DNA of 64,000 bases from Aeromicrobium endophyticum (GTDB taxonomy: Bacteria > Actinomycetota > Actinomycetes > Propionibacteriales > Nocardioidaceae). Positions 4,875 to 58,209 of the stretch are shown here, piece by piece (position 1 is the stretch's first letter; the number at the start of each line of letters is the position of its first letter). The notes beneath the pieces are model-generated. The model saw only the letters and a program-made list of their open reading frames with translations. It did not search any database and had not been told where the DNA came from. The stretch spans positions 1,054,001 through 1,118,000 of the forward strand of contig NZ_QUBR01000001.1 in the NCBI RefSeq assembly GCF_003586285.1, in the 5' to 3' direction. Both the position numbers and the translations under genes were made by a program.

Positions 4875-5027
4875 TCGACGTCCCATCCTGGCGGAAACCA
4901 CAGGAGTGCGTGGTCGAATCACCAATGCCGGTGACGAAGGGCCGACGGCCGATGTGTCCGGGCTGTCCATGTGCGCGTCTGCGCCCGCCATGGCCTACCG
5001 TGGTGGTAGCCATCCGGAGGGAACGCC

Positions 5028-5183
5028 ATGACGTACGAAGCAGAGAAGAAGCGCCTCATCGAGGAGTTCGAGACTGTCGTGGCGACCATCCGAGCCGACT
5101 GGGGCCTGAAGGACAAGGGCCAGAAGTCCGAGGCCAAGCCCTCGCAGCAGTCGAGCGCTCCGCGCACCGTCGGCCGTCACTGA
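5028..5183 (+). CDS. Small hypothetical protein, 51 aa
   Basis: ATG 5028 follows GGAGGGAA with ideal spacing, one of the strongest Shine-Dalgarno sequences in the window. A TACCGT -10 box lies at 4996-5001. The product MTYEAEKKRLIEEFETVVAT continues to about residue 30 as an amphipathic, highly charged helix and ends in a Ser/Gln-rich tail (KPSQQSSAP). No membrane segment or cysteine is present, so a soluble, perhaps coiled-coil, partner-binding peptide is plausible. No family recognised. It is divergent from the RCK-channel gene. Confidence 0.6.
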   Translation: MTYEAEKKRLIEEFETVVATIRADWGLKDKGQKSEAKPSQQSSAPRTVGRH

Positions 5184-5243
5184 CCGCCGACATCCCGGGC
5201 CACGGCCCCGTCATGACCGTGCTGCTCGGTGCTCTACCCAGGC

Positions 5244-5375
5244 ATGCACGTACGCGATCTCCCCGCAGCGATCCTGGGTCTCATCACCGGGATCTTCTTC
5301 CTGACCGGCTTGGCCGTCGTCGAGGGCATCCGCGCCATCTCCCCGTTCGCACGCAGGTCGACCCCCTCCGCTTGA
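5244..5375 (+). CDS. Putative small membrane protein, 43 aa
   Basis: The frame begins MHVRDLPAAILGLITGIFFL and carries one hydrophobic helix (about residues 8-28) followed by a basic end (FARRSTPSA). The ribosome binding site is weak (AGGC), so expression may depend on coupling to the 51-aa ORF 60 bases upstream. It ends 16 bases before the stop of the convergent hydrolase gene. It may be spurious; the helix and position are the only support. Confidence 0.35.
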   Translation: MHVRDLPAAILGLITGIFFLTGLAVVEGIRAISPFARRSTPSA

Positions 5376-5390
5376 GAGCTCCGATGGGCT

Positions 5391-6179
5391 CTACCCCCTG
5401 ACGTCGTCGAAGACGCGGGGGTCGTGGGCCGTCACCACCGTGACGCCTGGTTCGGCGTCGAGCTCGCGCAGGGCCCGGTGGTTGCGGGCGATCGCCGCGC
5501 GGTCGCGACCCACCACCTGCTCGAACGCACGGAGTGCCCGGATCGACTGGAGGCCGTGCCCCGCGGGTGTGCTGTCGGCGTACGACGACGCGTCGAAGGC
5601 GGCGTCTCCGGCATGGATGGTCAAGCGTCCGTCGCCGGCATCGACGGCCACGGCTGCGTGCCCTCGGGAGTGGCCGGCCATGGGCACGAGCGTGATGCCC
5701 GGCAGCACCTCGTGCCCGGTCAGCCCCGCCCGCCACGCGTCGCCGCGGCCGGCGTGCAGCTGCCAGGCAGGACCGTGCGCCCACTGGGCCGGCCGGTACC
5801 GCCGGCGGTCGAGGACGTCCGGCGACGTGATCGCGGCGGCGTGCTCGTCGGCCGTGGTGTGCACCGTCGCCTGGGGGAAGTCCGACAGACCGCCGACGTG
5901 GTCGAAGTCGAGGTGGGTCAGGACGACGTGCGTGACGTCCGTGGCCGAGAACCCGCGCGTCTGCAGCTGGAGCACGGCCGAGGCCGCGGGGTCCATGACG
6001 GGCTTGAGCAGGTGACGCGACGGCCCCATCCGGCCCTTCGGATCGGCGTAGTCGTCGAGGCCGAGCCCGGTGTCGACGAGCACCAGCCCGTCATCGGTCT
6101 CGCACAGCAGGACGTGGCACACCAGGTGGCCGACCAGCGGCGGGGCGAACGAGCCGCAGCTCAGGTGGTGGACGCGCAT
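5391..6179 (-). CDS. Metallo-beta-lactamase-fold hydrolase (lactonase-like)
   Basis: The 262-aa protein has the Zn-binding motif HLDFDHVGG (HxDxDHxGG) at about residue 100, a downstream GHSRGHAAV histidine, a metal-bridging aspartate in HAGDAAFD, and a C-terminal TAHDPRVF histidine. This set and the length resemble quorum-quenching lactonases and related MBL hydrolases; the substrate is not certain. The start was chosen at MRVHHLSCGSFAPP: ATG 6179 has AGGA upstream, whereas the longer frame adds a low-complexity N-terminus. It lies 61 bases downstream of the membrane-tethered sigma-factor gene on the same strand and may be co-transcribed. Confidence 0.88.
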   Translation of the reverse strand: MRVHHLSCGSFAPPLVGHLVCHVLLCETDDGLVLVDTGLGLDDYADPKGRMGPSRHLLKPVMDPAASAVLQLQTRGFSATDVTHVVLTHLDFDHVGGLSDFPQATVHTTADEHAAAITSPDVLDRRRYRPAQWAHGPAWQLHAGRGDAWRAGLTGHEVLPGITLVPMAGHSRGHAAVAVDAGDGRLTIHAGDAAFDASSYADSTPAGHGLQSIRALRAFEQVVGRDRAAIARNHRALRELDAEPGVTVVTAHDPRVFDDVRG

Positions 6180-6240
6180 GCCGGTATCCTGCCTCATCCT
6201 CGGGCGGACGGGTGGTGGTCGCGGGCTTCCGCCCGGCGGA

Positions 6241-7764
6241 TCAGCGGGCGGAGTCGTCGACGACCACGCGGGCCGTGTTGTTGCCCGGGCGCGGGTCGTC
6301 ACCGCTCGCGCCGGCGAGCCTGACGACGGCCTCGAGCCTGCGCCCCGTCACCGCGACGGCCATCGTGGTGCGACCGTCGACCGGACCGTCGAAGGTGCAC
6401 AGCACGGTCGTCGCCTCCTTGCTCTCCCCCGCCGACGAGCTGCACGAGGGCGTCCTGCCGGTCTGGTCCTTCTGCACCTCGAACGACGCCAGGCTGCCCA
6501 CCTCGAAGCTGAGCCGGACCGACGGGCTGTCGGCAACGACGTCGGCCTGCAGCACGAAACCGCCAGAACCGGTGGAGTAGGCCGTCAACGCCCTGACCGA
6601 GAGGTCGGGCGGAACCTGCGTCGGCGCGGCGGTCGGTGCGATCGGATCGATCGTCCGGGCGGGTGCCGTCGGTGACGGGGTCGGGCGCGGCGCCGGACGG
6701 GTGGTGGTCGGCGACGGCTGCGGGACCGCGGGCACGGCCGGAGCAGCGGCAGGCGGGGACACGACCGGCGACGGCGTGGTCGCCTCGGGGCTGGCGGCCG
6801 CCGACGGCGCCGGTGCAGCCGACGGCGAGGGAACCGGGGGTGCCGCGACCGGGCCGCGAGCCTCGTCAGCCCCGGCCCACCACACGGCAGCGAGGACCGC
6901 GACGATCGCGGCGGCTCCGGCCACACCGGCCTGGGCGATCGTCCGACCCCGACCCGCGTGGACGGCTGTCATCGCAGCCCCTCCCGAGGCGGCCGTCGCC
7001 ACCGTGGGGACACCGACGACCAGCAGCGCCGCCGGCAGGTTCGCGGCCAGCCGCGAGTCGAGCATCGAGAGCTCGTCGTAGGCGCCGGCGCACGCCGAGC
7101 AGCCGGCGAGGTGCAGGTCGACCCGCGCCCGCTGCTTGGCCGGCACGCGCCCCTGGCGGTGCGCCGCCAGCAGGCTGCGCGTCGGACCGCAGTCCTCGTC
7201 GGTCGTCGGCAGCACGTGCCGCGCCAGGTACGCCTCGCGCAGGCTCTCCTTGGCCCGGTAGGTCAGCGCCGCGACACCGTTGGGCGTCATGCCCAGCAGC
7301 TTGGCCGTGACGCTGTGGGGATCCTTCTCCACCAAGGCGTGCCAGAGCACGAGCTGGTGCCGCTCGGGCAGCGAGTGGAAGGCCGACGCCAGCACCTCCG
7401 ACTCGTCCCTCAGCACTCCCTCGTCATCGGGGGACGAGACGGCGTCCATCACGCCCTCGTCGCCGACCCACACGTGCCGGCTGTCCTTGCGGACGTGGTC
7501 GACGTAGCGGTTGCGCACCGCGGTCATGAGGTAGGGACGGAACGCGACCTCGGGCCCGCGACCGTCACGGATGACCTGGAAGACCCGCACGAAGGCGTCC
7601 GAGGCGAGGTCCTCGGCGTCCGAGACCCCGGCCAGCCGGCGCGCGTACCGCACGGCGGCGGCCTGGTGCCTGACGAACAGCTCGCCCTCGGCGGCGGCGT
7701 CACCGCCGCGGACGGCCTCGATCAGCGCCGCGTCGGTGACCTCGTCGAGGTCGGAGACGGTCAT
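6241..7764 (-). CDS. ECF-type sigma factor fused to zinc-finger/TM/extracellular tail
   Basis: 507 aa. Residues ~22-90 form sigma region 2 (AEDLASDAFVRVFQVIRDGR; FRPYLMTAVRNRYVDHVRKD) and ~125-180 region 4 (SLPERHQLVLWHALVEK; TAKLLGMTPNGVAALTYRAK). After these comes an anti-sigma-like zinc finger, H218-x3-C222-x2-C225 (HLAGCSAC), a membrane helix at ~278-298, a Pro/Ala/Ser/Thr-rich spacer (301-385) and an ~120-aa extracellular domain with two Cys (441, 456). The sigma factor and its membrane restraint are therefore one chain, as described for large actinobacterial ECF groups with C-terminal extensions. The gene lies 67 bases after the LPSTG surface-protein gene, separated by a strong hairpin; no clear RBS is visible at the ATG. 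It likely senses an envelope or surface signal, perhaps through proteolysis. Confidence 0.87.
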   Translation of the reverse strand: MTVSDLDEVTDAALIEAVRGGDAAAEGELFVRHQAAAVRYARRLAGVSDAEDLASDAFVRVFQVIRDGRGPEVAFRPYLMTAVRNRYVDHVRKDSRHVWVGDEGVMDAVSSPDDEGVLRDESEVLASAFHSLPERHQLVLWHALVEKDPHSVTAKLLGMTPNGVAALTYRAKESLREAYLARHVLPTTDEDCGPTRSLLAAHRQGRVPAKQRARVDLHLAGCSACAGAYDELSMLDSRLAANLPAALLVVGVPTVATAASGGAAMTAVHAGRGRTIAQAGVAGAAAIVAVLAAVWWAGADEARGPVAAPPVPSPSAAPAPSAAASPEATTPSPVVSPPAAAPAVPAVPQPSPTTTRPAPRPTPSPTAPARTIDPIAPTAAPTQVPPDLSVRALTAYSTGSGGFVLQADVVADSPSVRLSFEVGSLASFEVQKDQTGRTPSCSSSAGESKEATTVLCTFDGPVDGRTTMAVAVTGRRLEAVVRLAGASGDDPRPGNNTARVVVDDSAR

Positions 7765-7775
7765 GCGCGCACCGC

Positions 7776-7812
7776 GGCCCCCGGGCGTGTGGTGCTCACA
7801 CGCCCGGGGGCC
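7776..7812 (-). terminator. Terminator of the LPSTG surface-protein gene
   Basis: Perfect 15-bp GC-rich arms (7776-7790, 7798-7812) with a 7-nt loop, 19 bases after the stop codon. No long T-tract, as usual in this group. It ends only 11 bases before the sigma-factor ATG, so it could also mask that start in read-through mRNA. Confidence 0.75.
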
Positions 7813-7831
7813 GTCGTCGAGGTGCTGACGG

Positions 7832-10800
7832 TCACGCGTGCTCCGTCGGCTTCACCTCACGGCGACGCCTCACCAGCACGGCGCCGCCGGCGATCAGCGC
7901 CAGACCACCGAGCAGCAGACCCAGCGCCGGACCGCCCGTGGAGGGCAGCACGCTGTTGCCGTCGTCAGCCTGGTCTCCGTCGTCCTTGACCTGGCCGCCG
8001 TCCGGCTTGTCGTCCTTGTCGTCCTTGTCGTCCTTGTCGTCCTTGACGTCACCGGGCACCGGGGCACACGCCTTGTCGGTGTAGGTGACGTCGTCGACCA
8101 CCAGCGTGGCCTTGTTGAGGAAGCCGGTGCCGGTCTCGGTGTTCTTGACCTTGCAGTCCTGCTCGGCCTTGGCGATCTTGGTGTCGACGTGGACGCCCAC
8201 CGTCACGGTGTAGACGTGCGTCGCACCGCCGGCGATCTTCTGGTCCGCCACGAGCACGGAGTCCTTCAGACCGTCGTAGGCCGGGTTGACCGTCACGCCG
8301 TTCGCGGTCGTGGCCGCCTTGGCCGACAGCACCTTGACGTCACCACCGAACGTCAGCTGGTCGTTGAGGCTGTACGTGCCCTCTGCGGTGCCGGAGTTGG
8401 CCACCGTCAGCGAGTACGTCACCGTCCCGTCGCGCTTGGCGTCCAGGACGCTCTGGCTCTCGACCTTCTTGTCGACCACGATCTTGACGTTGCGGTCGAT
8501 GACCACACCGGCATCCCACGTCGGGTCCTGCGAGTCGGGCGCGAGGGTGATCTCGGCCGTCTCGCCCGTCGTGGTGTCGGCGTCGGAGTCGACCGCGTCG
8601 TCACTGCCGGCGTTGCGGGTCGTGAACGTCGTGTTGGAGTTCAGCCCGTTCGGGTCGAAGACCACCTTGTACGTGCCCGACGCCAGACCCTTGAACGAGT
8701 ACTTGCCGTTGGCGTTGGTCGTGGTCGACAGCGACACGTCGTTGCCGTCCAGGTCCTTGCCCACCAGCTTGACCGGGAAGTCGGCCACACCCGGCTCGTC
8801 CGCGTCCTGCAGACCGTTCTTGTTCAGGTCCTCCCACACGAAGTCGCCGATGGCCGACTCGATGACCTTGATCTCGCGCGAGGCGGGACCGACCGGCTGC
8901 GTCACGCCGTTGGCGCGTCCCGAGGTGATGTTGTCGTACACGTCGCCTCCGGCGTTCTTGGACGGCGTCATGACGATGTTGACCGTCATGTCGTCACCGG
9001 GCGCGAACGCTCCCGCCCGCTTGAACCGCAGACCCGTGACCGCCGAGGCCGTCGTGGGGCAGTCGGCCGCCGTGCCGGCGCCGGACACCGGGGTGCCGCT
9101 GATCGCCGAGCACCACACCGTGGCACCCGTCGCACCGTTCGTCGGGTCGTTCGGGTCGACCTTCAGACCCGCAGCGGGGCTCGACGTGTACTGGATGTCG
9201 ATGCCGGTTCCGGCCGCGACCGTCGCCGACGTGAACGCCAGGCTTCCGGTGAAGTCGGTGTCACCCACGCCGTCGGCGGGCAGCACGTCGATCACGTCGA
9301 CGTCCGAGACGTTCTGCGGGGCGTCGACGTTCGCGAAGTCGACGGTCCACTTGAGCGTGCGCGGTGCGGCCACCCCGTCAGGGTTGACCTCGACGATGCT
9401 CTGCGGCGTCGACTTGGCGATCTTGATGCCGGTCGGCGTCACGATCTGGATCTGCGCCGATGCGTCACGAGCCGAAGCCGGCGACGGGTCCTGCTCCGAG
9501 CTGACCAGCGCGTTGTTGATGTAGTTGCCGTTGCGGACCGTGCCGAGGATCTCGACCGAGTAGACGATCGGGTCGACCGTCTCGTTGACCGTGTTGTCGC
9601 CCAGGTCCCACTTCACGTAGGTCTCCCCCGCGGCGCACTGCAGCTCCGCGCCCGCAGGCGATCCCTGCTGCACCAGCACCGGGGTGATCGGGTCACCCGA
9701 CGTCTCGCGCTTGGACGAGACGAACTGCTGGTACTTGGGCAGGCAGTCCTCGATGATCACAGGCGCCTTGGTCCCCGCGCTCACGTCGGCCGTGATCGTC
9801 GGGTTCAGGCGGTAGTCGACCTTCGACCCACTGCTGTACTGGGGCACCGCGGAGTCGCTGAAGACGCCCGTGGTCGGGTTCTTGACGTACTTCTTCAGAC
9901 GTGCCGTGACGCCTCCAACGAGAAGTCGGTCGCCCGCCGATCCCGAGTGGTTCGCCGGGTTGTACTTCGACGTGACGTAGCTCGACGAGGGGTCGGCCAG
10001 GATCTCCGGCAGCGTGTGCGTGCCGTTGACGATCTTCTGCGAGGCCCAGTTGGGGACGATGTCTCCGGAGGCGTTGGTCTTCTTGACCGTCATGCCCAGC
10101 GCCAGGTTCACGTAGAAGTAGTCGGTGTTGTACTTGTACTCGCTCGAGAACGAGATGCGCACGCGGTTGACGCCGCTGTAGACGCCGTCGGCCGAGACCG
10201 ACGCACCTGGGACTCCCTCAGGTGTGTTCGACCACGTGCCGGTCTCGCAGCTCGAATCAGCACCGCTGCCCGCTGGTCCGGACGAGTACTGGATCGTCAG
10301 ACCGGGGATGTCCGACACCGGAGCCATGAGTGCGTCATTGGGGTTGAAGTACGAGATCCAGGCAGCCTCGCCGCCGGACGGACGGTTGTTGCGATCGCCG
10401 CTCGACAGGGAGTTGACCTTGGTCAGCGCCAGCTTCGACTCGTCCCACACGTCGCACGCGAAGTAGCTGCGCGCGTTGGCCGTCCCCGAGTTCGGGACTC
10501 CGCCGTTGGCGCCGAAGAACAGGTTGCTCTGCACGACCTGACCGGGCACGACGACGGTGTTGCCGTCGAGCTTCTGGTTGGAGCCCGGAGGGCCCTGCCA
10601 GGCACCGAACCCCGGCGAGAACCGGTTGGGCGGCGTGTTGCCCTGCTGGCCCCAGATGCCCGAGAAGAACTTGTCGAAGCCTTCGCTGATCTTGACCTGC
10701 AAGGTCGCCTTGCGGTTGTTGTTGGCGAGCACCTCACCCGTGTTGGGGTTGCCGGCGATGTCGCTCATCGAGATGTCGGTGTAGGTGTTCTCGGTGGCCA

Positions 10801-12298
10801 GTGTCCAGGTGTTGCCGTCTGCACCGGCGACACCCAGGTCGGTGATCGCGTCGGAAGGGATCTCCAGGTTGACCTGACGACTGATGACGTAACCGGTGTC
10901 GGCCGGCAAGGCAGCCATGCTGCCGGTCAGGGTAGGAACGGTGTACGCGGTCGTGTCGGCGTCGGTGATCGTGATGTCCACCGGCGTGCCGAGACCGCCA
11001 GGTTGCACGCACGACAGGTTGCCGGAGTCGCGTACCGAGTTCTTGACGGTGTCACCGTTGCCTCCGCTGGAGTACGGGATGCCTCCCCAGAGGTTCTGGG
11101 TGCCCGGGCAGCTCTGCAGACGCGGGGCGTACTTCTGCAACGCTGCCGCCTCGGACCCGGCCTTGGTGATCGCGTCGGCCCACGCGGCAGCGCCGAAGTA
11201 AGTGGCAGGGCTGATGTCGTCCGTCATGGTGATCGGGGATGCCAGCGGAGAGGTCCCCTTGCCGCCGCCCGGGGCGGTGATCGTCAGCGGGTACTCCACG
11301 ATCCGGCACGACCGAGCGGCGTCGAACGAGCACGGACCGGCGACACGGCTGTAGAAGGGGCCGGCGTTCTCGTTCGCGGCGGTGCCGCGCTTCGAGACGT
11401 CGAAGTTGGCCTTGGCCGACACGATCTGGCTGACGCTCGGCGACGAGGCAGGAGTCGTGACCTGGTCGGTGGTGGCCGACGCCGTGAAGGGAGTCATGGC
11501 ATGCCCGTTGGGCATCTCGGGACGGACTTTCGAGAGGAACTCGTAGTTCAGCGCAGTGCCCTGCGTCTGGTCCGCGACGACGCACACGACCGTCTGGGTC
11601 GGCAGCGCCTGATACGAGGTCGAGGTCACGGGAACGGTAGGTGCCGGCAGGTTCGCCGGCGTCACCGACGAGCCGTCCAGGCAGAACGGCGGGAGCGAGA
11701 CCAGCTCCTGGCCCTGCGGCAGCGTGAACTTGATCTGCGGGTTGGTCTGGTCCTCGCCCTCGTACCGGACACCCACGCGATACGTGATCGTGTCGTTGGT
11801 GCGGATGACGTCGTTGGTCGCGCTCGAGTCGTGCCCGGCGGCGTCGTCGCCATCGAAGGGGCCCGTGCCCGTGGTCTGCGACAGGTCGACCGACAACGTG
11901 CCGTCGCCGATGGCCTTCGCGACGATCGACCTGGCGCGCTCGACGGCACCCGGCTCGCCCTGCGGCGTGGGCTCGGTCGGCACGTCGGCCTTGGGAGCGT
12001 CCTTGGTCTTGACGTCGGCCTTGGGCGCATCCTTGGCGCCGGACTCTGACGTGTCGGCGGGCTCGTGGGCTGCAGGGGCCTCGGGCGTGCTCTTGACGTC
12101 CAGCTCCGGTGTGTCGGTCGACGGAGTCTCTGTTGGGGCCGGCGTCGACGTGGTCGACGGGTCAGGGGTCTCGTCAGCCGCCACCGACGACGAGGCCACC
12201 AGACCCGACGACGCGAGCATCAACGCGAGCAGCGTCGACACCCCTAGACGTACGGCTGGGCGATGATTGCGCGGGTGCTTGCGGAGTCCAGGTGCCAC
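7832..12298 (-). CDS. LPSTG-anchored SdrD-type giant surface protein
   Basis: 1488 aa. GTG 12298 is preceded by GAGGA and opens a basic stretch and signal peptide (VSTLLALMLASSGLVASSSVA). A Pro/Thr/Glu/Lys-rich stalk follows (roughly to residue 120), then a long beta-rich region of isopeptide/DUF11-like folds. Near the C-terminus is an SdrD-B/Cna-B-type domain (GDFVWEDLNKNGLQDADEPG; NANGKYSFKGLASGTYKV), a last DUF11-like domain, a KDD repeat, the sorting signal LPSTGG, a membrane helix and RRRR. It should be linked to peptidoglycan by a housekeeping sortase, none of which is in the window. A strong hairpin follows the stop. The tethered sigma factor next door is a candidate regulator. Adhesion or aggregation is inferred from the architecture. 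Confidence 0.9.
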   Translation of the reverse strand: MAPGLRKHPRNHRPAVRLGVSTLLALMLASSGLVASSSVAADETPDPSTTSTPAPTETPSTDTPELDVKSTPEAPAAHEPADTSESGAKDAPKADVKTKDAPKADVPTEPTPQGEPGAVERARSIVAKAIGDGTLSVDLSQTTGTGPFDGDDAAGHDSSATNDVIRTNDTITYRVGVRYEGEDQTNPQIKFTLPQGQELVSLPPFCLDGSSVTPANLPAPTVPVTSTSYQALPTQTVVCVVADQTQGTALNYEFLSKVRPEMPNGHAMTPFTASATTDQVTTPASSPSVSQIVSAKANFDVSKRGTAANENAGPFYSRVAGPCSFDAARSCRIVEYPLTITAPGGGKGTSPLASPITMTDDISPATYFGAAAWADAITKAGSEAAALQKYAPRLQSCPGTQNLWGGIPYSSGGNGDTVKNSVRDSGNLSCVQPGGLGTPVDITITDADTTAYTVPTLTGSMAALPADTGYVISRQVNLEIPSDAITDLGVAGADGNTWTLATENTYTDISMSDIAGNPNTGEVLANNNRKATLQVKISEGFDKFFSGIWGQQGNTPPNRFSPGFGAWQGPPGSNQKLDGNTVVVPGQVVQSNLFFGANGGVPNSGTANARSYFACDVWDESKLALTKVNSLSSGDRNNRPSGGEAAWISYFNPNDALMAPVSDIPGLTIQYSSGPAGSGADSSCETGTWSNTPEGVPGASVSADGVYSGVNRVRISFSSEYKYNTDYFYVNLALGMTVKKTNASGDIVPNWASQKIVNGTHTLPEILADPSSSYVTSKYNPANHSGSAGDRLLVGGVTARLKKYVKNPTTGVFSDSAVPQYSSGSKVDYRLNPTITADVSAGTKAPVIIEDCLPKYQQFVSSKRETSGDPITPVLVQQGSPAGAELQCAAGETYVKWDLGDNTVNETVDPIVYSVEILGTVRNGNYINNALVSSEQDPSPASARDASAQIQIVTPTGIKIAKSTPQSIVEVNPDGVAAPRTLKWTVDFANVDAPQNVSDVDVIDVLPADGVGDTDFTGSLAFTSATVAAGTGIDIQYTSSPAAGLKVDPNDPTNGATGATVWCSAISGTPVSGAGTAADCPTTASAVTGLRFKRAGAFAPGDDMTVNIVMTPSKNAGGDVYDNITSGRANGVTQPVGPASREIKVIESAIGDFVWEDLNKNGLQDADEPGVADFPVKLVGKDLDGNDVSLSTTTNANGKYSFKGLASGTYKVVFDPNGLNSNTTFTTRNAGSDDAVDSDADTTTGETAEITLAPDSQDPTWDAGVVIDRNVKIVVDKKVESQSVLDAKRDGTVTYSLTVANSGTAEGTYSLNDQLTFGGDVKVLSAKAATTANGVTVNPAYDGLKDSVLVADQKIAGGATHVYTVTVGVHVDTKIAKAEQDCKVKNTETGTGFLNKATLVVDDVTYTDKACAPVPGDVKDDKDDKDDKDDKPDGGQVKDDGDQADDGNSVLPSTGGPALGLLLGGLALIAGGAVLVRRRREVKPTEHA
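8006..8045 (-). repeat. 9-bp tandem repeats coding KDD units
   Basis: cttgtcgtc repeated four times plus a partial copy inside the LPSTG protein gene, encoding consecutive Lys-Asp-Asp units before the sorting signal. Nine-base units keep frame, so slippage would only change the length of the acidic/basic spacer near the cell wall. Confidence 0.85.
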
Positions 12299-12529
12299 GA
12301 TTCGTCCTCGAATCTGAGCGCGCGACCTCAGCAGCCGCGACGAAGGGAGTTGTTGACTCCTATGAGACGGGCAGTACAGGCATCCATGACCGGACAAACG
12401 GGTGAAACAGGGATGGCTTCGGGGGTGAGAACCGGGGTGAGTCGACATCCGTCCACCGGGCCGACGTGGCGCGTCATCGAGGCGACGTACCCTGGCAGGC
12501 GATCACTGTGAGCTCGGGACGGGGACAGC

Positions 12530-12979
12530 ATGAGGATGCGCATCGCGATGGCCGGCGTCGTCGCGCTGGCCGGGACGCTCGCGGCGTGCGGCAGCAGCTC
12601 GGACGGCGACGACTACTGCCGACAGCTCAAGACGTCGGTGTCGGCGTTCGCGAACCTCGACTCCGGCAACTTCCCGGACGTCGTCAGGGCGTACCACCGG
12701 CTCGCCGAGGCGGCCCCGGACGAGGTCAAGGCCGACTGGCAGACGCTCGACACCACCATGACGGCCCTCGACAAGGCGCTCCGCGCGGCCGACATCACCC
12801 TCGGCGAGCTGCCCGGCACGCCCACACAGACGATGCCGGCGGGCGTCGACCCCGCGAAGGTGCGAGACGTCACCGCGGCGGCATCGAAGCTGCGCAGCCC
12901 CGCCTTCACGAAGGCGGCCACGGCCGTTCAGGAGCACGGCGAGAAGGTCTGCGGCGTCACCACGAGCGAGACGTCCTAG
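12530..12979 (+). CDS. Small secreted lipoprotein, unknown function
   Basis: 149 aa. MRMRIAMAGVVALAGTLAAC is a lipoprotein signal peptide with lipobox LAAC, so the mature protein begins at Cys20 and is anchored to the outer face of the membrane. After a Gly/Ser linker it is largely helical, with two further Cys (YCRQ and KVCGV) that could form a disulfide. A purine-rich RBS (GGGACGGGGACAGC) precedes the ATG; TACCCT at 12488-12493 may be the -10 box. It is divergent from the LPSTG protein and convergent with the LuxR gene, 13 bases apart. No family recognised. Confidence 0.82.
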   Translation: MRMRIAMAGVVALAGTLAACGSSSDGDDYCRQLKTSVSAFANLDSGNFPDVVRAYHRLAEAAPDEVKADWQTLDTTMTALDKALRAADITLGELPGTPTQTMPAGVDPAKVRDVTAAASKLRSPAFTKAATAVQEHGEKVCGVTTSETS

Positions 12980-12992
12980 CCGCCGCCACAAG

Positions 12993-15416
12993 TCAGTCGT
13001 GCAGCAGGCCCAGCAGGTGGCCGGCGGCGACCGCTTCGGAGCGGTTGGAGGCGCCGAGCTTGCGGTACAGGCCACGTGTCTGCGTCTTCACCGTGTTGCG
13101 CGAGACGAACAGGCGCGCCGCGATCTCGTCGACGGAGCTTCCCAGCGCCAGCGCGACCAGCACCTCGCGCTCGCGAGGAGTGAGCCGCACGAGCCCGATC
13201 GACTCGGGGTACGGATGGCGGATCTCGATCGCGCGCAGGTCGCTCAGCACGTCCGCGAGCGTCGGCACCGAGTGCTCGTACGTGCGGAGGAGCTCCACCG
13301 GCACCGTCGCGAACGGCGACAGCATGCCGAGGGGCACGGCGGCGTCCACCGCACGCCTCAGCAGCCCGCGGCTGACGTCCGTCTCGCCGATGCGGTCGTA
13401 CGACACCGCGGCCAGCAGCTGGGCCTCGACGCGCAGGCGGTGGAACGGGTGCGATCCGCCGGTCAAGGACGCCAGGATGTCGATCGTCCGGTCGTGCTGC
13501 CCGGTCAGGTAGGCCAGCCGGGCGCGGGTGACGGCACCGAACAGGTTGCGCTGCGGCACGTCCTCGAGCAGCCGGTTGGCCTCCGTCCCGCGACCGAGCG
13601 ACAGCAGCAGGTCGGCCTCGAACACGTTGAGCAGGCCGGCCGTGTCGGGCAGGCGGGCCGAGTCGACCAGGCGGGACGCGCGCAAGCGGTGCAGTGCTTG
13701 CAGCCGCCCGCCCCAGCCGAGGGCGCTTCGGCTCTCGGCGTAGGTCGCCCAGACGCGGACGACCTCGGGCACGTCCGCGAAGTCGCTCGCCGCGGTCTGG
13801 CGCACGGGCTGCGCGCGGGTCTCGAACGACATGAGGGTGTCGGCGAGGTCCATCGTGGTGGTCGGGAAGTTGAAGCGGGCCACGCTGGTCCGCAGCTCGT
13901 GGGAGTCATCCCGCGACCGCCGGGCGGCCTGGATGTCGCCGAGCACCGTGCTGATGAGGGCCTGGAAGCTGGCCGCCTCGTGACGGACGACCACGGCGCG
14001 CGCACCGTCGGACGACCGCACCACGTGCCGCAGCCGCGCCTCCGCCGCCACGATGTCACCGGCGGCGAAGGCCGTGATGCCCAGCTCGAGGATGAGCTGG
14101 GCGGCCGCGATGTGCTCGGGGCCCGACGCGTCGAGGGCCTGCTCGGCCAGCTCGACGGCAGCCGCGCTGGACGCCAGGGTCTGGGCTGCCAGACCGGCTC
14201 GGCGTCCGCCGATGACGCCGATCGTCTCGAGGTGCAGCCGCGCCTGGGTGTCGGACGGAGGGTTGCGCCAGCCGCCGCTGCGCTCGTCGCGGTCGCGCGG
14301 CGGTCGCAGGGCGATCGTGTCGTCGAGCACGCGCGCGATGGCCGAGCCCGAGCGCATGTGGTCGGGCAGCTCTCGTAGGGCGACCCGCAGCGACGACTCG
14401 TGGGCCTTGAGCAACATCCACCCGCTCTCGTCGAGGATGGCCTCCACCGTCCGCCAGCGCTCGCCGGCCACGGCCTGCGCGAGGGCGAGGTGCGGCAGGC
14501 CCAGGGTGCGGAAGGCCGCGACGACGGCGTCGTGCAGCTCGTCGACGTCGCCGATGTCGATGTGGTCGAGATCGTGCTTGAGGGTCTCGCGGGCCAGCGC
14601 CGGCATCCAGTAGATCGGCTCGTGGCCGTCGACCCACTGGTCGACGACGCCGATGCTCTCGAGGCTCTCGAGCATCCGACGCGGCGAGCCGTCCGGGTCG
14701 GCGGCACCGAGGGAGTCGGCGCTCAGGTGCTCGATGAAGGCCGCGCGTCGCAGGTCGATGCGCGCCCTGGGGTCGACGATCTCCGACATCAGGTGCCCCG
14801 CGAGGAAGCGCCGCACCCGGCCCTCCGACCACCACGTCGGCGTGCCCCCGGCGTTGCTGGTGACGAGCCCGATGCGGGCCAGCGCCGGCATGCCGCCGAT
14901 GGACGTGTGGATCGCGGCAGCGGCTCCGTGCGTCAGCTCCAGGCCGGCTCGAGCCGCGATGGCCGTGACGTCGTCGACGGTGAGTCGCAGGTCGGACATG
15001 CTGATGCGGCCGACATCGAGCTCGAGCTCGGCGGCTGTGAACCACGGCAGGTGCGTGCGCGAGCAGACGACCATGGTCAGCTCGGGGTGGTAGCGCAGGG
15101 CCCTGACGATCTCGGGGCCTGGCCAGTCGGTCCAGCCCTCGATGTGGTCGAGCACGATGACGGTGCGACCGGCAGGTGCGCGGTCGAGCTCCTCGAGCAC
15201 CGTCATCAGGTCGTCGACCGTGCTGCGCTGGCCGTCGAACCACTGCACAGGGATGCCGGAGTCCGCGATCTGGTGGGCCCACTGCAGGACGGCGACCGTC
15301 TTGCCCGACCCGCTCGGCGACCGCACCACGGTGAGCGGACGGTAGAGCCGGAGCAGGTCGACGATGCGCTGCCGCACGACGAAGTCGCCCATCCGAGCCA
15401 GTGCCGACTCGCTCAC
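12993..15416 (-). CDS. MalT-like LuxR-family ATPase regulator
   Basis: 807 aa. The N-terminal NTPase has Walker A SPSGSGKT (about residues 33-40) and a Walker B-like TVIVLDHIEG. A long helical repeat middle follows, then a C-terminal LuxR helix-turn-helix (LTPREREVLVALALGSSVDE, then AARLFVSRNTVKTQTRGLYRKLG). This is the MalT/LAL type: an ATP-dependent activator that oligomerises on an inducer. The start overlaps the stop of the 171-aa gene by ATGA-type coupling (15413-15416), so the two are co-translated. Several surface genes lie on both sides; direct control of them is speculation. Confidence 0.92.
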   Translation of the reverse strand: MSESALARMGDFVVRQRIVDLLRLYRPLTVVRSPSGSGKTVAVLQWAHQIADSGIPVQWFDGQRSTVDDLMTVLEELDRAPAGRTVIVLDHIEGWTDWPGPEIVRALRYHPELTMVVCSRTHLPWFTAAELELDVGRISMSDLRLTVDDVTAIAARAGLELTHGAAAAIHTSIGGMPALARIGLVTSNAGGTPTWWSEGRVRRFLAGHLMSEIVDPRARIDLRRAAFIEHLSADSLGAADPDGSPRRMLESLESIGVVDQWVDGHEPIYWMPALARETLKHDLDHIDIGDVDELHDAVVAAFRTLGLPHLALAQAVAGERWRTVEAILDESGWMLLKAHESSLRVALRELPDHMRSGSAIARVLDDTIALRPPRDRDERSGGWRNPPSDTQARLHLETIGVIGGRRAGLAAQTLASSAAAVELAEQALDASGPEHIAAAQLILELGITAFAAGDIVAAEARLRHVVRSSDGARAVVVRHEAASFQALISTVLGDIQAARRSRDDSHELRTSVARFNFPTTTMDLADTLMSFETRAQPVRQTAASDFADVPEVVRVWATYAESRSALGWGGRLQALHRLRASRLVDSARLPDTAGLLNVFEADLLLSLGRGTEANRLLEDVPQRNLFGAVTRARLAYLTGQHDRTIDILASLTGGSHPFHRLRVEAQLLAAVSYDRIGETDVSRGLLRRAVDAAVPLGMLSPFATVPVELLRTYEHSVPTLADVLSDLRAIEIRHPYPESIGLVRLTPREREVLVALALGSSVDEIAARLFVSRNTVKTQTRGLYRKLGASNRSEAVAAGHLLGLLHD

Positions 15417-16568: not shown

Positions 16569-19500
16569 TCAGCCCCTCGCCCGCACGCGGACGACGTGCA
16601 TCTTCTTGCCGACCTTGACGCCGAGGTTCCAGTACGTGCGGCCGCGCAGGTCCTTCATCGTCACGCCCAGGGCGTAGCGGTCGTGGCCTGCGGGACGCAT
16701 CAGGCCGCCAGGCTTGCGCGGCGTCCTCGGTGCGACCTCCGCCTCGTAGTACGTCGGCCTGCTGCCCGCCATCACGACCAGCGTGTAGGTGCGGCCTCGC
16801 TTGACGTCGTACGCGCCGTTGCGGAAGGTCGCACCGTCCAGCGTGACGATGCTGGTGCGGTAGCGGACGCTGCGCGAGCGCTGGTTGCCGGCCTTGTCGG
16901 TGGCCGTGGCGGTCACGGTCGTGACGGTGCCGCGCTTGCGCTGGGTGACCTTGCACGAGGCGACCCCCGACAGCGCGTCCTTGGCGGCACACGTGGCGCG
17001 CGGAGCCTTGCCGCCGTACACGCGGCCGCTCTTGACACCCCTGATCTTCAGCGTCGGTCGCTGGTCGTCGACGTTGATGCCGCCGACCACGACCGTGGCG
17101 ACGCCGCCGTCGGTGGACGCGATGGTGCGGGTCACCGACTGCCCGGCGCCCCGTCCGATCCGCACCGGCGAGGGGCAGGGCTCGGTGAGCTCGGCGCCGT
17201 TCGTGGTGCAGGTGAACGAGACCGTGACGGGTGCGCCGTACCAGCCGTAGCCGGTCTTGGCCCGCGCGCTCGCGACCGTCGCCGTGATCGTCGGGTCGCT
17301 GCGGGTCACCGACGTCGACGAGCCGGTGAACATCGTGTCTCCGTCGTAGACCGCGGCGACCTGGCGGGCCAGGCCGGTGGGCACCGCCTGCTTCAGGCGT
17401 GCGACGCCGTCGACGAGCGGTGCCGTGCCGATCTCGTCACCCCCGACGCTGAACGTGACGGTGCCGGTCGGCGTGCCCTGGCCCGGCGAGGTCGCCACGA
17501 CCTTCGCCGACACCGAGGCGGGGTCGACCGTGACCGACGTGGTGGTCGCGGCCTTGCCGACGACCTGGGTGACGACGTTCTCGCCTCCCGCGTAGCGGAC
17601 CGCGTCGGTCGGCACGAACGTCGCCTTCACCTGGTGGGACCCGGGCGCGAGGGGACGTCCGTCGGCGTCCCGCAGCTCGGGGCTCTTCGCCGTGCCGGAC
17701 GAGACGGCGACCGGTGAGCCGAGAGCGTCGCCGTCGACCGAGAACTGCACCGAGCCGACCACGGCGTCGCCGCCCACGTGCGAGACCGTCGCGGTGGCGG
17801 TCGCCGGCTGGCCGTAGACGGTCGGCGACTCCGATGTCGTGACGCCCACGGTCGTGGCGATGGTGCTGACCACGATCGTCTGCGTCAGCTGCGGGGCCGC
17901 GCTGTACGTGCCGTCGCCCGCCTGGTCGAAGGCGATGACACAGGTACCGGCGTGATCGAACGACACCACACCGCCGGCCAGCGAGCAGGCGCCGTCGGTC
18001 GTGCCCGAGCCGATCGACACCGCGACGGTGCCGCCGGGGGCGGTGGCCGCCGGGGTGTACGACTGACCGACGACGGGCGCGTCCGGGGCGATGGACGTGA
18101 CGGTGATCGCCTGCGCCGCCTTGACGACGTCGATGACCAGGGTCTGCTCCGTCGTGCCGGACGAGCTCTTCGCCGTCACCTTGACGCTGTAGCGATCCGC
18201 CGAGCCGGCGGCGGGCGTGCCCGACAGGGTCACCGAGCCGTTGCTGTTCTCGGTCGCGGTCACGCCGGAGGGCAGGTCGCCGTCGATGGTGAGCTTCGGC
18301 GCCGGGTACCCGGTGGCGGTGATCGTGAACGATCCCTCCGTGCCGACGGTGAGCTTGGCGCTGTCTTCGCTGGTGAAGGTCGGGACGGTCGTCACGCTCA
18401 CGGTGAGGGTCTGCTTGGTCGGCGGAGCACTGCCGTTGTCGGCCGTGACGACGACCGAGGCAGCGCCGCTGTCGCTCGCTGCCGGCTTGCCGGTCAGGGA
18501 GGCGGTGCCGTCACCGTTGTCGGTGAAGGTCGCCCACGAGGGCACGCCGCTGGCGGTCAGAGCCACGGACGTCGGGTACCCGCCCGCGGTCGTCACGTCG
18601 AAGCTGCCGGACTCGCCGGCGGCGAAGGTGGCCTGGTCGTCGCTGGTGATCGTCGGCGACTCCGTCACGGACAGCGTGAAGCTCTGCTGTCGCGAGCCCG
18701 CCGCGCTGGTGGCCGTCAGCGTCAGCGGGTAGCTGCCGCCGGTGCCCGCGTCAGGCGTGCCGGCCAGCGTCGCGGTGCCGTCGCCGTTGTCGGTGAAGGT
18801 GACGCCCTTCGGCAGGGAGCCGGTCTTGGCCAGCGTCCTCGCGGTCGGGTAGCCGGCGGACGTGGTGACGGTGAAGCTGTCGGCCTTGCCCGCGGCGAAG
18901 GTGGCGCCGTCGGCGCTGGTGATCGACGGAAGCTCGTTGACCGTGAGTGTGAAGGTCTGCGTCGCCGCCGGGCTGAAGCCGTTGGCGGCCCTCAGATCGA
19001 CCGTGAGCGTCCCACCGCTGCCCTTCGGAGCGGTGCCGGCCAGTGTCGCCGTGCCGTCGCCGTTGTCGGTCACCGTCAGCCAGGACGGGAGGGTGCTCGT
19101 GGCAGAGACCGTCGCGTCGGGCGTCCCTTCCGTCGCGACGGTGAAGGTGCCGGCCGTGCCGACGGCGAAGCTCGCGTGGTCGGTGGACGTGAACGAGGGG
19201 GCCGTGCCGACGTACAGGGTCGCGGCGGTCGAGGTCGCGGAGTCACGGGTGTTGGTGAAGACCGCGCGGTACTGGTTGCCGTCGTCGCCGCGCACCGCGG
19301 TGAAGGTGTACGTGGGGCTCGTTGCTCCAGCAACGTTGGTGAAGGACGCTCCCCCGTTGGTTGAGCGCTGCCACTGCACCGTGGGCGCCGGCGCACCGGA
19401 CGCAGCGGCCGTGAACGACACGCTCGTGCCGGGGGTGACCGTCTTGTCGGCCGGGTCGGTGGTCACGGAGGGCTTCTGGTCGACCCGGATCGTCAGCGTC

Positions 19501-21527
19501 TGCGTGCCGGCCGGCGTGCGGCCGTTCACGGCGGTCAGCGTGATCGGGTAGCTGCCGGCGGTGCCCGCGTCGGGCGTGCCGGCGATCGTCGCGGTGCCGT
19601 CGCCGTTGTCGGTGAAGGTCAGGCCGGCGGGCAGGGCACCTGAGCGGGTGATCGCCGTGACGGCCGGGAAGCCCGATGTCGTGACGGTGAACGAGTCGGC
19701 GCTGCCCACGACGAAGGCCTTCGTGTCGCTGCTGGTGAAGGACGCGGGTCCACCCACGGTCAGGGTCGCGGCCGTCGAGGTGGCCGGCTGGCCGACCCCG
19801 TTGGTCGCGACGGCGCGGTAGCGGTTGCCGTTGTCGGTGGCCGTCGTCGTGAGCGAGTACGTCGTAGAGGTGGCCCCGTCGATGTCGGCGTAGCCCGAGC
19901 CGCCGTCGGTCGAGCGCTGCCACTGCACGGTGGGCGCCGGGTAGCCGGCGGCGGCGACGGTGAACGTCGCCTGCTCCCCCACGGAGACCGAGGCGTCCGA
20001 GGGGTTCGTGGTGATGGTGGCCGGCCGCTGCACGACGACGTCGGCCGTCGTCGTGGCGTTGTCGAGCGAGGCGGAGACCGATCCGGCACCGCTGGACGTC
20101 GCGGAGCCGTACGACACGCTCGCCACCCCTCCGGAGAGGTTCGACGAGGACGCACCGACGGTCGCGGGGGTGGGCTTGGGGCTGCTCCACGCCACGGGGA
20201 GGCCGTCGAACGCGGTCAGGTCGCTCGGCGAGACGGCACCACCGGCGGAGTCGGCCAGCAGCGAGGCCTTGATCGTCGACGTGCCGTTCGGGCCGGTGAC
20301 CGTGGACGGCGACGCAGACGCCTTGACCACCAGGCGAGGGGTCACGTCCACAGCAGTGCCGTCGGAGGCGACGGTGTCGCAGCCGGCCGAGCCGGGCCCG
20401 TCGTTGCAGCCGAACCAGTTGAGCTCGGCGTCGACCGAGCCAGCTCCGGAGGCGGCGTGGACGGCCGTCCCGGTGGCAGCGACGTTGCCGGTCAGTCGGT
20501 TGTGCCGCAGCGTCGCCCGACCTCTGAGCACCTCGACCGCGCCGCCTCGGGCGCCAGCGCCTCCCTTGACCTCGTTGCCTGTGAAGGTCGAGCGAGAGAC
20601 CGTCAGCACGCCACCGTCCTGACGGATCGCGCCGCCGTCCGCCCGCGCGGTGGTGCCCGTCACGCTGTTGCCGACGAAGCGCGATGCGGTGACGGAGAGT
20701 GGCGTGGACGCCGGGCTCCCGACGGCGAGGCCACCGCCACCGTTGGAGACCGACTCGTTCGAGCTGGTCGCCTGGTTGGACGAGAAGGTCGTGCCCGTGA
20801 TGGTGAGCGACTCGCCACTGCCCTGCCCCTGCGCGTAGTACGCGACACCGGCGCCCGGGGAGCTGTAGGAGGAGTTGCCCGAGATCGTCGAGCTCGTGAT
20901 CGTCAGCGACCCGCCGATGAACTGGACGCCACCGCCGGGCTTGTTCGAGCTGCTCTGGTTGGCGGCGTTCGCGACGTTGCCCGTGATGACGCTGTTGGTG
21001 ATGCTGAGGGTGTCGGCAGCGGTCGAGTTGCCCGAGCCGCCGATGATGCCGGCGCCGCCGAAGGTGCTGTCGGCTCCGCCCGTGACGGTCACGCCGCTGA
21101 TGCTGACCGCGACGCCTCCGACGATGTTCGGGTCGAGGTCGAGCACGCGGCTCTTGCCGTCGCCGTCGATGATCGTCGACCCGGCACCGGCTCCGGCCAG
21201 CCTGACGTCCTGACCCACTGCCTTGCCGATCTGAAGCTCACCGCTGGCCAGCACGTACCGACCGGCCGGGACCGTGATGGTGGCGGTGCCGCCGATGTTG
21301 TTGGCCAGGCAGGTCGCCTCCCGCAGGCTCAACGGGCCTGAGGGTGCCGTCACCGACGTGCTGCCGCAGGCGCCCGCGTTGGCGGCGACGTCCGCGGTGG
21401 TGGTCACCGTCAGGCTGGTCGCAGCACTGGCAGGCGCCGCCCCGACGAGTGCGAGCGTTCCCGCCAGCAGGCACGTGACCAGCGTGGTGGTCAGGAGCTT
21501 CGTGGTAGGCGTGCGCTGTGCGCTCAT
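16569..21527 (-). CDS. Giant secreted beta-helix/Ig-repeat protein
   Basis: 1652 aa. ATG 21527 (MSAQRTPTTKLL) has AAGGA 8 bases upstream. After the signal peptide (CLLAGTLALVGAAPASA) comes a right-handed beta-helix (~40-370; PLSLREATCLANNIGGTATI and repeated SxxxGN turns), as in pectin-lyase-fold proteins and CSLREAI-containing adhesins. Then follow an invasin-like segment, two I-set-like Ig domains (each with VQWQRST), five He_PIG-type repeats (shared FTDNGDGTATLAGTPDAG), Big_3_5-type domains (TGTVTFSVGG) and a C-terminal domain with CAAKDALSGVASCKV. There is no LPxTG or C-terminal anchor, so it is secreted or loosely bound. It is the last gene of the operon with three tail-collar proteins; glycan binding or adhesion is inferred. 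Confidence 0.88.
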   Translation of the reverse strand: MSAQRTPTTKLLTTTLVTCLLAGTLALVGAAPASAATSLTVTTTADVAANAGACGSTSVTAPSGPLSLREATCLANNIGGTATITVPAGRYVLASGELQIGKAVGQDVRLAGAGAGSTIIDGDGKSRVLDLDPNIVGGVAVSISGVTVTGGADSTFGGAGIIGGSGNSTAADTLSITNSVITGNVANAANQSSSNKPGGGVQFIGGSLTITSSTISGNSSYSSPGAGVAYYAQGQGSGESLTITGTTFSSNQATSSNESVSNGGGGLAVGSPASTPLSVTASRFVGNSVTGTTARADGGAIRQDGGVLTVSRSTFTGNEVKGGAGARGGAVEVLRGRATLRHNRLTGNVAATGTAVHAASGAGSVDAELNWFGCNDGPGSAGCDTVASDGTAVDVTPRLVVKASASPSTVTGPNGTSTIKASLLADSAGGAVSPSDLTAFDGLPVAWSSPKPTPATVGASSSNLSGGVASVSYGSATSSGAGSVSASLDNATTTADVVVQRPATITTNPSDASVSVGEQATFTVAAAGYPAPTVQWQRSTDGGSGYADIDGATSTTYSLTTTATDNGNRYRAVATNGVGQPATSTAATLTVGGPASFTSSDTKAFVVGSADSFTVTTSGFPAVTAITRSGALPAGLTFTDNGDGTATIAGTPDAGTAGSYPITLTAVNGRTPAGTQTLTIRVDQKPSVTTDPADKTVTPGTSVSFTAAASGAPAPTVQWQRSTNGGASFTNVAGATSPTYTFTAVRGDDGNQYRAVFTNTRDSATSTAATLYVGTAPSFTSTDHASFAVGTAGTFTVATEGTPDATVSATSTLPSWLTVTDNGDGTATLAGTAPKGSGGTLTVDLRAANGFSPAATQTFTLTVNELPSITSADGATFAAGKADSFTVTTSAGYPTARTLAKTGSLPKGVTFTDNGDGTATLAGTPDAGTGGSYPLTLTATSAAGSRQQSFTLSVTESPTITSDDQATFAAGESGSFDVTTAGGYPTSVALTASGVPSWATFTDNGDGTASLTGKPAASDSGAASVVVTADNGSAPPTKQTLTVSVTTVPTFTSEDSAKLTVGTEGSFTITATGYPAPKLTIDGDLPSGVTATENSNGSVTLSGTPAAGSADRYSVKVTAKSSSGTTEQTLVIDVVKAAQAITVTSIAPDAPVVGQSYTPAATAPGGTVAVSIGSGTTDGACSLAGGVVSFDHAGTCVIAFDQAGDGTYSAAPQLTQTIVVSTIATTVGVTTSESPTVYGQPATATATVSHVGGDAVVGSVQFSVDGDALGSPVAVSSGTAKSPELRDADGRPLAPGSHQVKATFVPTDAVRYAGGENVVTQVVGKAATTTSVTVDPASVSAKVVATSPGQGTPTGTVTFSVGGDEIGTAPLVDGVARLKQAVPTGLARQVAAVYDGDTMFTGSSTSVTRSDPTITATVASARAKTGYGWYGAPVTVSFTCTTNGAELTEPCPSPVRIGRGAGQSVTRTIASTDGGVATVVVGGINVDDQRPTLKIRGVKSGRVYGGKAPRATCAAKDALSGVASCKVTQRKRGTVTTVTATATDKAGNQRSRSVRYRTSIVTLDGATFRNGAYDVKRGRTYTLVVMAGSRPTYYEAEVAPRTPRKPGGLMRPAGHDRYALGVTMKDLRGRTYWNLGVKVGKKMHVVRVRARG

Positions 21528-21555
21528 CGGTCGTCCTTGCATGGGAGTGGAGTGT

Positions 21556-22083
21556 TCAGGAGCGCGGCGGGAAGACGCCCTGCAGGGCGATGATGAAGTT
21601 CACGGCCACGTAGGGCGGCATGTTGTTGTGGGGGCGGCCGCCGCCGGCCGCACCCGATGCCACGGGCGACATCGGGGTCGTGGCATCGGCCGCGTAGACC
21701 TGTCGCGCGACGCGTCCGAAGCGCGGCTGCGCCCACGTGGCGTCGGCCGGCGACTCACGATCGCCCGAGGCCGACGACGCCTGGACACCGTGGCTGTGCG
21801 CGGGCATCTCGGACGTCAGCAGGGTGACCCGCTCCTCGCCACCGGTCTGGCCCAGGTCGTACAAGCTCAGTCCCTGACCCTGGCCCCTGGCGAGGGTGAA
21901 TCGTCCTCTGAGGTCGGGCAGCGCGAAGGTGCTCTTGCCGTCACCCCCGTAGGTCGTGCCGAGGAGCGAGAACAGCGCGGTGTTCTGGAAGATGGGCATC
22001 AGGTCTCCGTTGCACTGCGCCCACCCCTTCGGGGCGAAGTTGAAACCCACCTGCCGGATCTCGCCGACGAACGGATCGCTCAT
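21556..22083 (-). CDS. Phage-tail-collar domain protein 1 (MdpB-like)
   Basis: 175 aa. The N-terminal tail-collar signature PFVGEIRQVGFNFAPKGWAQ, then CNGDLMPI, LGTTYGGDGKSTFALPDLRG and the C-terminal NNMPPYVAVNFIIALQGVFP define the family, named for phage collars but mostly found in chromosomal genes of unknown role. A histidine motif MPAHSHGV is present. No signal peptide. It is the third of three tandem paralogues (10 bases after the second, 28 bases before the giant secreted protein). No phage structural genes are nearby, so it is not a prophage remnant. AAGGAGCTGTC provides the RBS. Confidence 0.92.
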   Translation of the reverse strand: MSDPFVGEIRQVGFNFAPKGWAQCNGDLMPIFQNTALFSLLGTTYGGDGKSTFALPDLRGRFTLARGQGQGLSLYDLGQTGGEERVTLLTSEMPAHSHGVQASSASGDRESPADATWAQPRFGRVARQVYAADATTPMSPVASGAAGGGRPHNNMPPYVAVNFIIALQGVFPPRS

Positions 22084-22093
22084 GACAGCTCCT

Positions 22094-22582
22094 TCAGTTC
22101 CTGCTCGGGAAGATGCCGGTCAGGGCGATCGCGTACGTGACGGGCAGGTGCGGCGGCATGTTCTCGTGGGGCTGGCTGCCACCGCTGTTGCCGATCGTCC
22201 CCGCCGCCATGGCCGTGTCGGCACCGTCGCCGTACGACCCGCCGTCCGCCCACAGGCCGCGGCGCGGATCGGCTGTCGTGGCACTGCCGCCCGCGGACAC
22301 GGCGTGGACGTGCTGGGGCATCTCGTCGACGCTCAAGGTGTGCGTATCGGAGCCGCCGGCCTGGCCGATGACGTAGTCGCCGCCGGCGTGCACCGATCCT
22401 CGGCCCTGCAGGTTGGGCAGGGCGAAGTTCGTGACGCCGTTGCCGCCGTACTGGACGCCGAGCAGCGAGAACAACGCCTGGTTCTGGTTGATCGGCAGCA
22501 GCTGGCCGTTGCACGCGGCCCAGCCCTTCGGCACGAAGTTGAAGGTGAAGGCCCTGATCTCGCCCATGAACGGTTCGCTCAT
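22094..22582 (-). CDS. Phage-tail-collar domain protein 2 (MdpB-like)
   Basis: 162 aa, paralogue of its two neighbours. It begins MSEPFMGEIRAFTFNFVPKG, WAACNGQLLPINQNQALFSL, then YGGNGVTNFALPNLQGR, MPQHVHAV and the C-terminal HENMPPHLPVTYAIALTGIF. Family, lack of signal peptide and operon position are as for the neighbouring collar genes; divergence among the three is mainly in the variable segment between the HxH motif and HENMPP, which may set binding specificity. Confidence 0.92.
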   Translation of the reverse strand: MSEPFMGEIRAFTFNFVPKGWAACNGQLLPINQNQALFSLLGVQYGGNGVTNFALPNLQGRGSVHAGGDYVIGQAGGSDTHTLSVDEMPQHVHAVSAGGSATTADPRRGLWADGGSYGDGADTAMAAGTIGNSGGSQPHENMPPHLPVTYAIALTGIFPSRN

Positions 22583-58179: not shown

Positions 58180-58209
58180 CTTCACTCTCCCGGAGTAGAT
58201 GAAACCAGA

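Follow-up and report, generated by a model that had tools for sequence, protein, structure and literature searches.

The gene at 6241..7764 on the minus strand of the window, a stretch of 64,000 nucleotides from Aeromicrobium endophyticum, encodes a 507-aa protein (P0001) in which an ECF sigma factor, a zinc anti-sigma domain, a membrane helix and an extracellular domain are joined in a single chain. We consider it somewhat better than even (about 55%) that P0001 is a self-inhibited, membrane-tethered ECF sigma factor, most likely the dedicated regulator of the LPSTG-anchored giant surface protein encoded next to it, and that it senses the adhesin layer. Within this reading we infer that P0001 is inhibited in cis and released by proteolysis, and we likewise infer what its signal is and that it targets the giant.

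The initial annotation had described a sigma factor, an HxxxCxxC finger, a membrane helix and an outer domain with a Cys pair in one chain, and all of these elements were found on the minus strand. Sigma region 2 (aa 29-96, 7477..7680, minus) scores 47.9 bits with Pfam PF04542 (Sigma70_r2, cut-off 24). Region 4 (aa 125-175, 7240..7392, minus) reaches 15.2 bits with PF08281 (Sigma70_r4_2), below the cut-off of 25.7, and TIGR02937 (sigma70-ECF) covers aa 25-178 with 65.5 bits against a cut-off of 42.9. Having regions 2 and 4 without the others, P0001 is by these matches an ECF (group IV) sigma factor. The zinc motif C192-x25-H218-x3-C222-x2-C225 (7090..7191, minus) reads HLAGCSAC at residues 218-225 with the further Cys at 192, and zf-HC2 matches aa 195-226 with 23.4 bits (cut-off 22.2). 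The four ligands are invariant (4/4) across the 15 rows of alignment A1, and by motif scan 48/48 fused copies of the genus contain H-x3-C-x2-C and, before it, a further Cys; the domain qualifies as a zinc anti-sigma (ZAS/zf-HC2) domain. Hydropathy gives one strong membrane segment at aa 276-294 (6883..6939, minus; mean 2.18), and a single-sequence model of the full-length protein, of low confidence (pLDDT 47), has a helix at 277-299. A second, weaker hydrophobic segment (aa 239-261, 1.6-1.7) more plausibly forms the final helix of the anti-sigma domain. Read from the sequence, an Arg-rich stretch precedes the membrane helix and an acidic stretch follows it, which fits a cytoplasm-in, wall-out orientation. 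Beyond the membrane lie a Pro/Ala-rich linker (aa 299-385, 6610..6870, minus; 30% Pro over aa 299-390) and an extracellular DUF11-type beta-sandwich with Cys441 and Cys456 (6256..6609, minus), assigned by profile comparison and a fold model.

Such a fused architecture, together with a proposed proteolytic release, has been published for ECF48, ECF52 and ECF53, including SCO4117 (PMC8999054, section 3.5.3; PMC5826349), and for this reason the headline idea on P0001 is not new. Truncated SCO4117 retains activity and switches on its own gene, and its release by proteolysis was proposed (PMC5826349). This ECF52 protein of Streptomyces coelicolor resembles P0001 in joining an ECF sigma factor to a zinc finger, a membrane segment, a Pro-rich stretch and an extracellular domain (PMC5826349; PMC8999054). 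However, its outer domain is a carbohydrate-binding module whereas that of P0001 is a DUF11-type adhesin repeat, and its gene adjoins atrA whereas the P0001 gene adjoins the LPSTG giant. P0001 possesses the zinc finger, the membrane segment and the Pro-rich extension that define ECF52, but we did not file it there because the C-terminal carbohydrate-binding module is missing. ECF48 and ECF53 share with it the fused zinc domain, one to two membrane helices and the occurrence in Actinobacteria, while linkage to anchored adhesins, which P0001 has, is not stated in the section 3.5.3 account of these groups (PMC8999054). In IutY of Pseudomonas putida (ECF243) a sigma factor is likewise fused to a membrane anti-sigma, and it is freed by regulated intramembrane proteolysis; it differs from P0001 in belonging to another family and to a Gram-negative siderophore system (PMC8999054). 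No link between a fused ECF sigma factor and a sortase-anchored protein was found in the literature searched by title and start of abstract, a scope outside which the main ECF classification papers fall, so that an earlier mention is possible. Within that literature, two features may be new: the DUF11-type sensor, and the repeated occurrence of these sigma genes beside anchored giants.

The sensor domain resembles adhesin repeats. Its Cys pair (Cys441/Cys456 in P0001) is invariant in 27/27 aligned sensor domains, and an HMM of these 27 domains, run against 9915 ORFs, had a sole non-sigma match at E<0.1, the giant encoded at 49591-58185 (E 1e-23); among the same ORFs it did not match the adjacent giant, P0002. 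Comparison by hhalign of the sensor-domain alignment with an alignment of the DUF11 repeats of the giant at 49591-58185 gave 96.6% (E 5.5e-10), where ten decoys, two reversed and eight column-shuffled, gave 0.9% at most. This second giant of the window (minus strand, 2864 aa) has an LPDTG anchor (LPXTG-type), 15 DUF11 stretches and pilin-like domains. P0001 alone does not match PF01345 (DUF11), which does match 3/27 sensor domains, and the assignment of its sensor as a DUF11-type adhesin repeat is accordingly one at profile level only. A single-sequence model of the domain is all-beta with an Ig-like fold (pLDDT 73). Its structural matches at Z 9-11 include integrin calf domains, which are the best, and, lower, SdrG, SdrD, Bbp and pilins; the scores of cohesins and cellulose-binding modules fall only slightly below, so that the fold names no ligand. 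A sequence search of the PDB with the sensor profile returned 0 matches and no Pfam CBM was found in P0001 at E<=1; sugar binding is still conceivable given the fold-level likeness of the model to some CBMs. A Trp before the first Cys, present in most sensor domains, is missing in P0001, which is thereby among the 18/48 fused copies whose last 130 residues do not contain the W-x-C...C pattern.

That the sigma gene directly follows a giant surface protein, as noted initially, was confirmed: a gap of 67 nt separates it from P0002 (7832..12298, ORF to 12448, minus), which scores 115 bits with SdrD_B and carries the LPSTG anchor. The giant counts 1538 aa as an ORF and 1488 aa from a GTG at 12298. 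The latter is more likely to be the real start, a GAGGA lying 6 nt upstream of it that is conserved in the sister genome G008, so that the listed ORF probably begins with 150 nt of upstream DNA. This region (12299..12448, minus), aligned with G008, contains a CGTCTCATAGGAGTCAAC block and three TCACCC repeats, spaced 12 and 23 nt, which are conserved in G008 while their flanks differ; it is the probable promoter/operator of the giant. The order giant-hairpin-sigma is kept in this one sister genome, where the homolog of the giant is 77% identical. A search of 5000-13500 for sigma-70 promoters gave none, and by eye no GGAAC/CGTC-type promoter with acceptable spacing lies upstream of the giant and the sigma gene. 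A promoter common to the two genes was not found either, so that the sigma factor is only a putative regulator of the giant. Elsewhere in the window, positions 16569-22582 (minus) encode a 1657-aa protein with Ig-type domains, and this gene is followed by two short proteins that by eye resemble phage tail-collar (Mdp-like) proteins.

Relatives of P0001 occur in 31/32 genus genomes searched. A first set of 16 genomes, its own included, had them in 15/16 (41 places, E <= 1e-10), and 16 further genomes had them in 16/16 (35 places, E <= 1e-20). Fused copies of 400 aa or more number 48, each of which has the complete zinc motif: 23 core, 4 EPS-locus and 21 accessory copies. The core copy sits at a fixed genomic place and the class was defined by neighbours recognised from short peptides, which we take, from their sequence, to be AroA, HisN-like and SRAP proteins. 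The EPS copies adjoin, by eye, a Wzz-like gene. L009, L060, L142, L145 and similar copies of the fused sigma factor form another type with a fixed place, beside Wzz-like and flippase-like genes, and several relatives of this type stop soon after the zinc motif, without a membrane helix. An apparent split between sigma and anti-sigma parts in L070 (G014) was considered as a natural fission and dropped, since the frame changes in the middle of region 4 and was read as a frameshift.

Linkage to surface proteins was counted for proteins of at least 350 aa with an LPXTG-like or C-terminal anchor. One lies within 3 kb of 9/21 accessory copies versus 2/40 random same-genus windows (p 0.0006), a comparison in which the control windows were not cleaned of false LPXTG matches as the foreground was and in which the inclusion of L139, L141 and L143, accessory copies that resemble the EPS type, lowers the linkage. 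The match removed from the foreground was IPLAA, near L047, in an 839-aa membrane protein that is by eye a cation ATPase. Within 300 bp the counts are 5/21 and 1/40 (p 0.016). The remaining 12/21 accessory copies are not beside anchored proteins. The nine linked copies (that of the window, L046, L047, L061, L144, L074, L146, L149 and L150) represent six lineages, and counted by lineage the linkage is 6/12 versus 2/40 random windows (p 0.001), the twelve lineages having been grouped by eye from the tree. The class rules were changed once: a narrower set of core markers, without an EPS class, was widened after the first counts had been seen, which moved three second-set accessory copies to the core and two to the EPS class. 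Under the earlier narrower rule the second set alone gives 4/15 (p 0.04); without any class split the linkage is 9/48 versus 2/40 (p 0.05), and the initial test had given 5/25 versus 2/40 (p 0.07). The curated model TIGR01167 draws a weaker picture: of the 42 anchors that it detects in the first 16 genomes, one lies within ~10 kb only of the copies in G000, G008 and G009. In a tree of the first 250 residues of the fused copies, made by a quick method and with some long branches, 6/9 surface-linked copies fall in one clade (support 98), the window and G008 copies are paired (support 100) and L047 stands apart. Surface linkage needs 3 changes on this tree versus a shuffled mean of 8.6, and 0/500 shuffles were as low.

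Outside the genus, a plasmid search gave 95 records, of which six regions were opened. An Arthrobacter alpinus plasmid (L022) carries two fused copies beside SpaA-type proteins, a class C sortase and a pilin, and the Paenarthrobacter OM7 plasmid (L024) has the same set of SpaA-type protein, class C sortase and pilin. On the unannotated Arthrobacter StoSoilB13 plasmid (L023) the Paenarthrobacter SpaA protein has a homolog 0.6 kb away, so that class C sortase and pilin accompany two of the three. These relatives share the architecture of P0001 and stand beside SpaA-type surface proteins, but are about 36-39% identical to it in the sigma/zinc part, and the outer domains of the A. alpinus copies look different. 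In A. alpinus, the SpaA-type protein whose gene immediately precedes the sigma gene matches the giant P0002 (29% over aa 780-1180, 3e-14). Two Streptomyces regions have no SpaA, sortase or pilin neighbour in their annotation, and in an unannotated Nonomuraea region the queries matched the sigma factor only. Outer domains outside the genus differ, with a ricin-type domain seen by eye and LamG given by annotation. L025, from Nonomuraea gerenzanensis, is a 791-aa fused relative whose chain continues beyond the Pro-rich part in a long additional C-terminal region, a kind absent among the genus copies. The initial annotation had suggested surface sensing from the adjacency of sigma gene and giant; a single adjacency is weak alone, and it is the pair kept in G008 and the recurrent linkage, extending to the pilin operons of Arthrobacter and Paenarthrobacter, that support the suggestion.

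In the mechanism that we favour, the zinc anti-sigma domain of P0001 would act in cis to keep the cytoplasmic sigma domains inactive, and the membrane helix and Pro-rich linker would place the DUF11-type adhesin repeat in the cell wall. A signal at the DUF11 domain might then free the sigma factor by way of site-1 and intramembrane proteolysis, a conformational change being the less likely route, and the sigma factor would activate a small set of surface genes, with the giant first among the candidates. The earlier proposal of a membrane-tethered sigma factor that awaits proteolysis or a conformational signal agrees with the anatomy and with the published ECF52-type model (PMC5826349, PMC8999054).

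The same protein, activated in the same way, could instead sense the state of the envelope or its polysaccharides and govern a broad regulon like that of SCO4117, which is pleiotropic (PMC5826349), the adjacency to the giant being incidental and the giant being under a LuxR-type gene. We hold this clearly less probable than a dedicated regulator, yet it deserves serious weight. None of the 23 core copies (0/23) and none of the four EPS copies (0/4), which have the Wzz-like neighbour, is beside an anchored protein. The LuxR-type regulator (GerE, nSTAND/MalT-like; 12993..15416, minus) is the main competing regulator of the giant and a real rival: it adjoins the giant here and apparently in G008, where an 834-aa ORF, matched by position only, occupies the corresponding place, and the TCACCC repeats upstream of the giant resemble an activator operator. 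A LuxR-type gene also adjoins a broken 55% homolog of P0002, with an LPXTG protein, in L027 (NZ_LR594676.1, Variovorax sp. PBS-H4 plasmid 2), a record without a fused sigma factor near the giant homolog; labelled Betaproteobacteria, it may be actinobacterial DNA in a wrong record. An incidental adjacency, however, accounts poorly for the enrichment of accessory copies beside anchored giants and for the giant-sigma order kept in G008.

Activation could also be conformational, an outside ligand loosening the zinc domain from the sigma factor while P0001 stays in the membrane, as was mentioned as an alternative for ECF52 (PMC5826349, Discussion). We think this improbable, because RNA polymerase would have to be drawn to the membrane by a sigma factor tethered there, and IutY, the one characterised fused case, is cleaved (PMC8999054).

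Between the giant and the sigma gene lies a hairpin (7775..7813, minus; 7775-7791/7797-7813) with a perfect stem and a 5-nt loop, whose region folds with z = -5.66. It had been annotated with a 15-bp stem ending 11 nt before the ATG; the hairpin is there, but its stem has 17 bp and ends 10 nt before the ATG. As noted initially, the sigma gene has no visible RBS, an SD-like motif being absent from the 25 nt that precede the ATG at 7764. No T run follows the hairpin, which therefore falls outside the classical definition of an intrinsic terminator (GC-rich hairpin plus T run), and terminator-like matches in 5000-13500 equal the shuffled mean. The window contains four perfect hairpins with a stem of at least 11 bp and a loop of 3-10, and 4/4 are intergenic. 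Since it belongs to this class of U-less hairpins located 3′ of stop codons, the one at 7775..7813 looks like an ordinary terminator, probably that of the giant. In G008 the stem shows one compensatory pair change (G-C to A-T), two loop changes and zero broken pairs, and is again close to an SD-less sigma start. That the hairpin also gates translation of the sigma gene, which would be made only under special conditions, could draw on this compensatory change and on a stable stem so near an SD-less ATG, but it is very unlikely, as the three other long perfect hairpins are intergenic and U-less too, one of them between convergent genes, and the pattern was matched in only 2/49 genus genomes; the control of sigma translation suggested earlier is thus not supported.

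Fused ECF sigma factors occur widely among actinobacteria; the example given in the review and in the SCO4117 paper is a carbohydrate-binding one, and the sections concerned name no proven ligand (PMC8999054; PMC5826349). The recurrent pairing with anchored adhesins and pilins and the adhesin-type sensor provide a concrete, testable ligand and target for one branch of these proteins. More tentatively, P0001 and its kin might be a branch of their own among the fused ECF sigma factors, one that uses a copy of the adhesin repeat as sensor and travels with pilins and sortase-anchored giants. Embedded through its DUF11 domain in the adhesin layer, such a protein would report assembly, binding or tension of the adhesins and adjust their expression in a one-protein feedback loop. 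A fused sigma factor may in this way monitor and control the anchored surface layer, and, if true, this would reveal a way in which a single protein could link transcription in Gram-positive cells to the state of their sortase-built surface layer.
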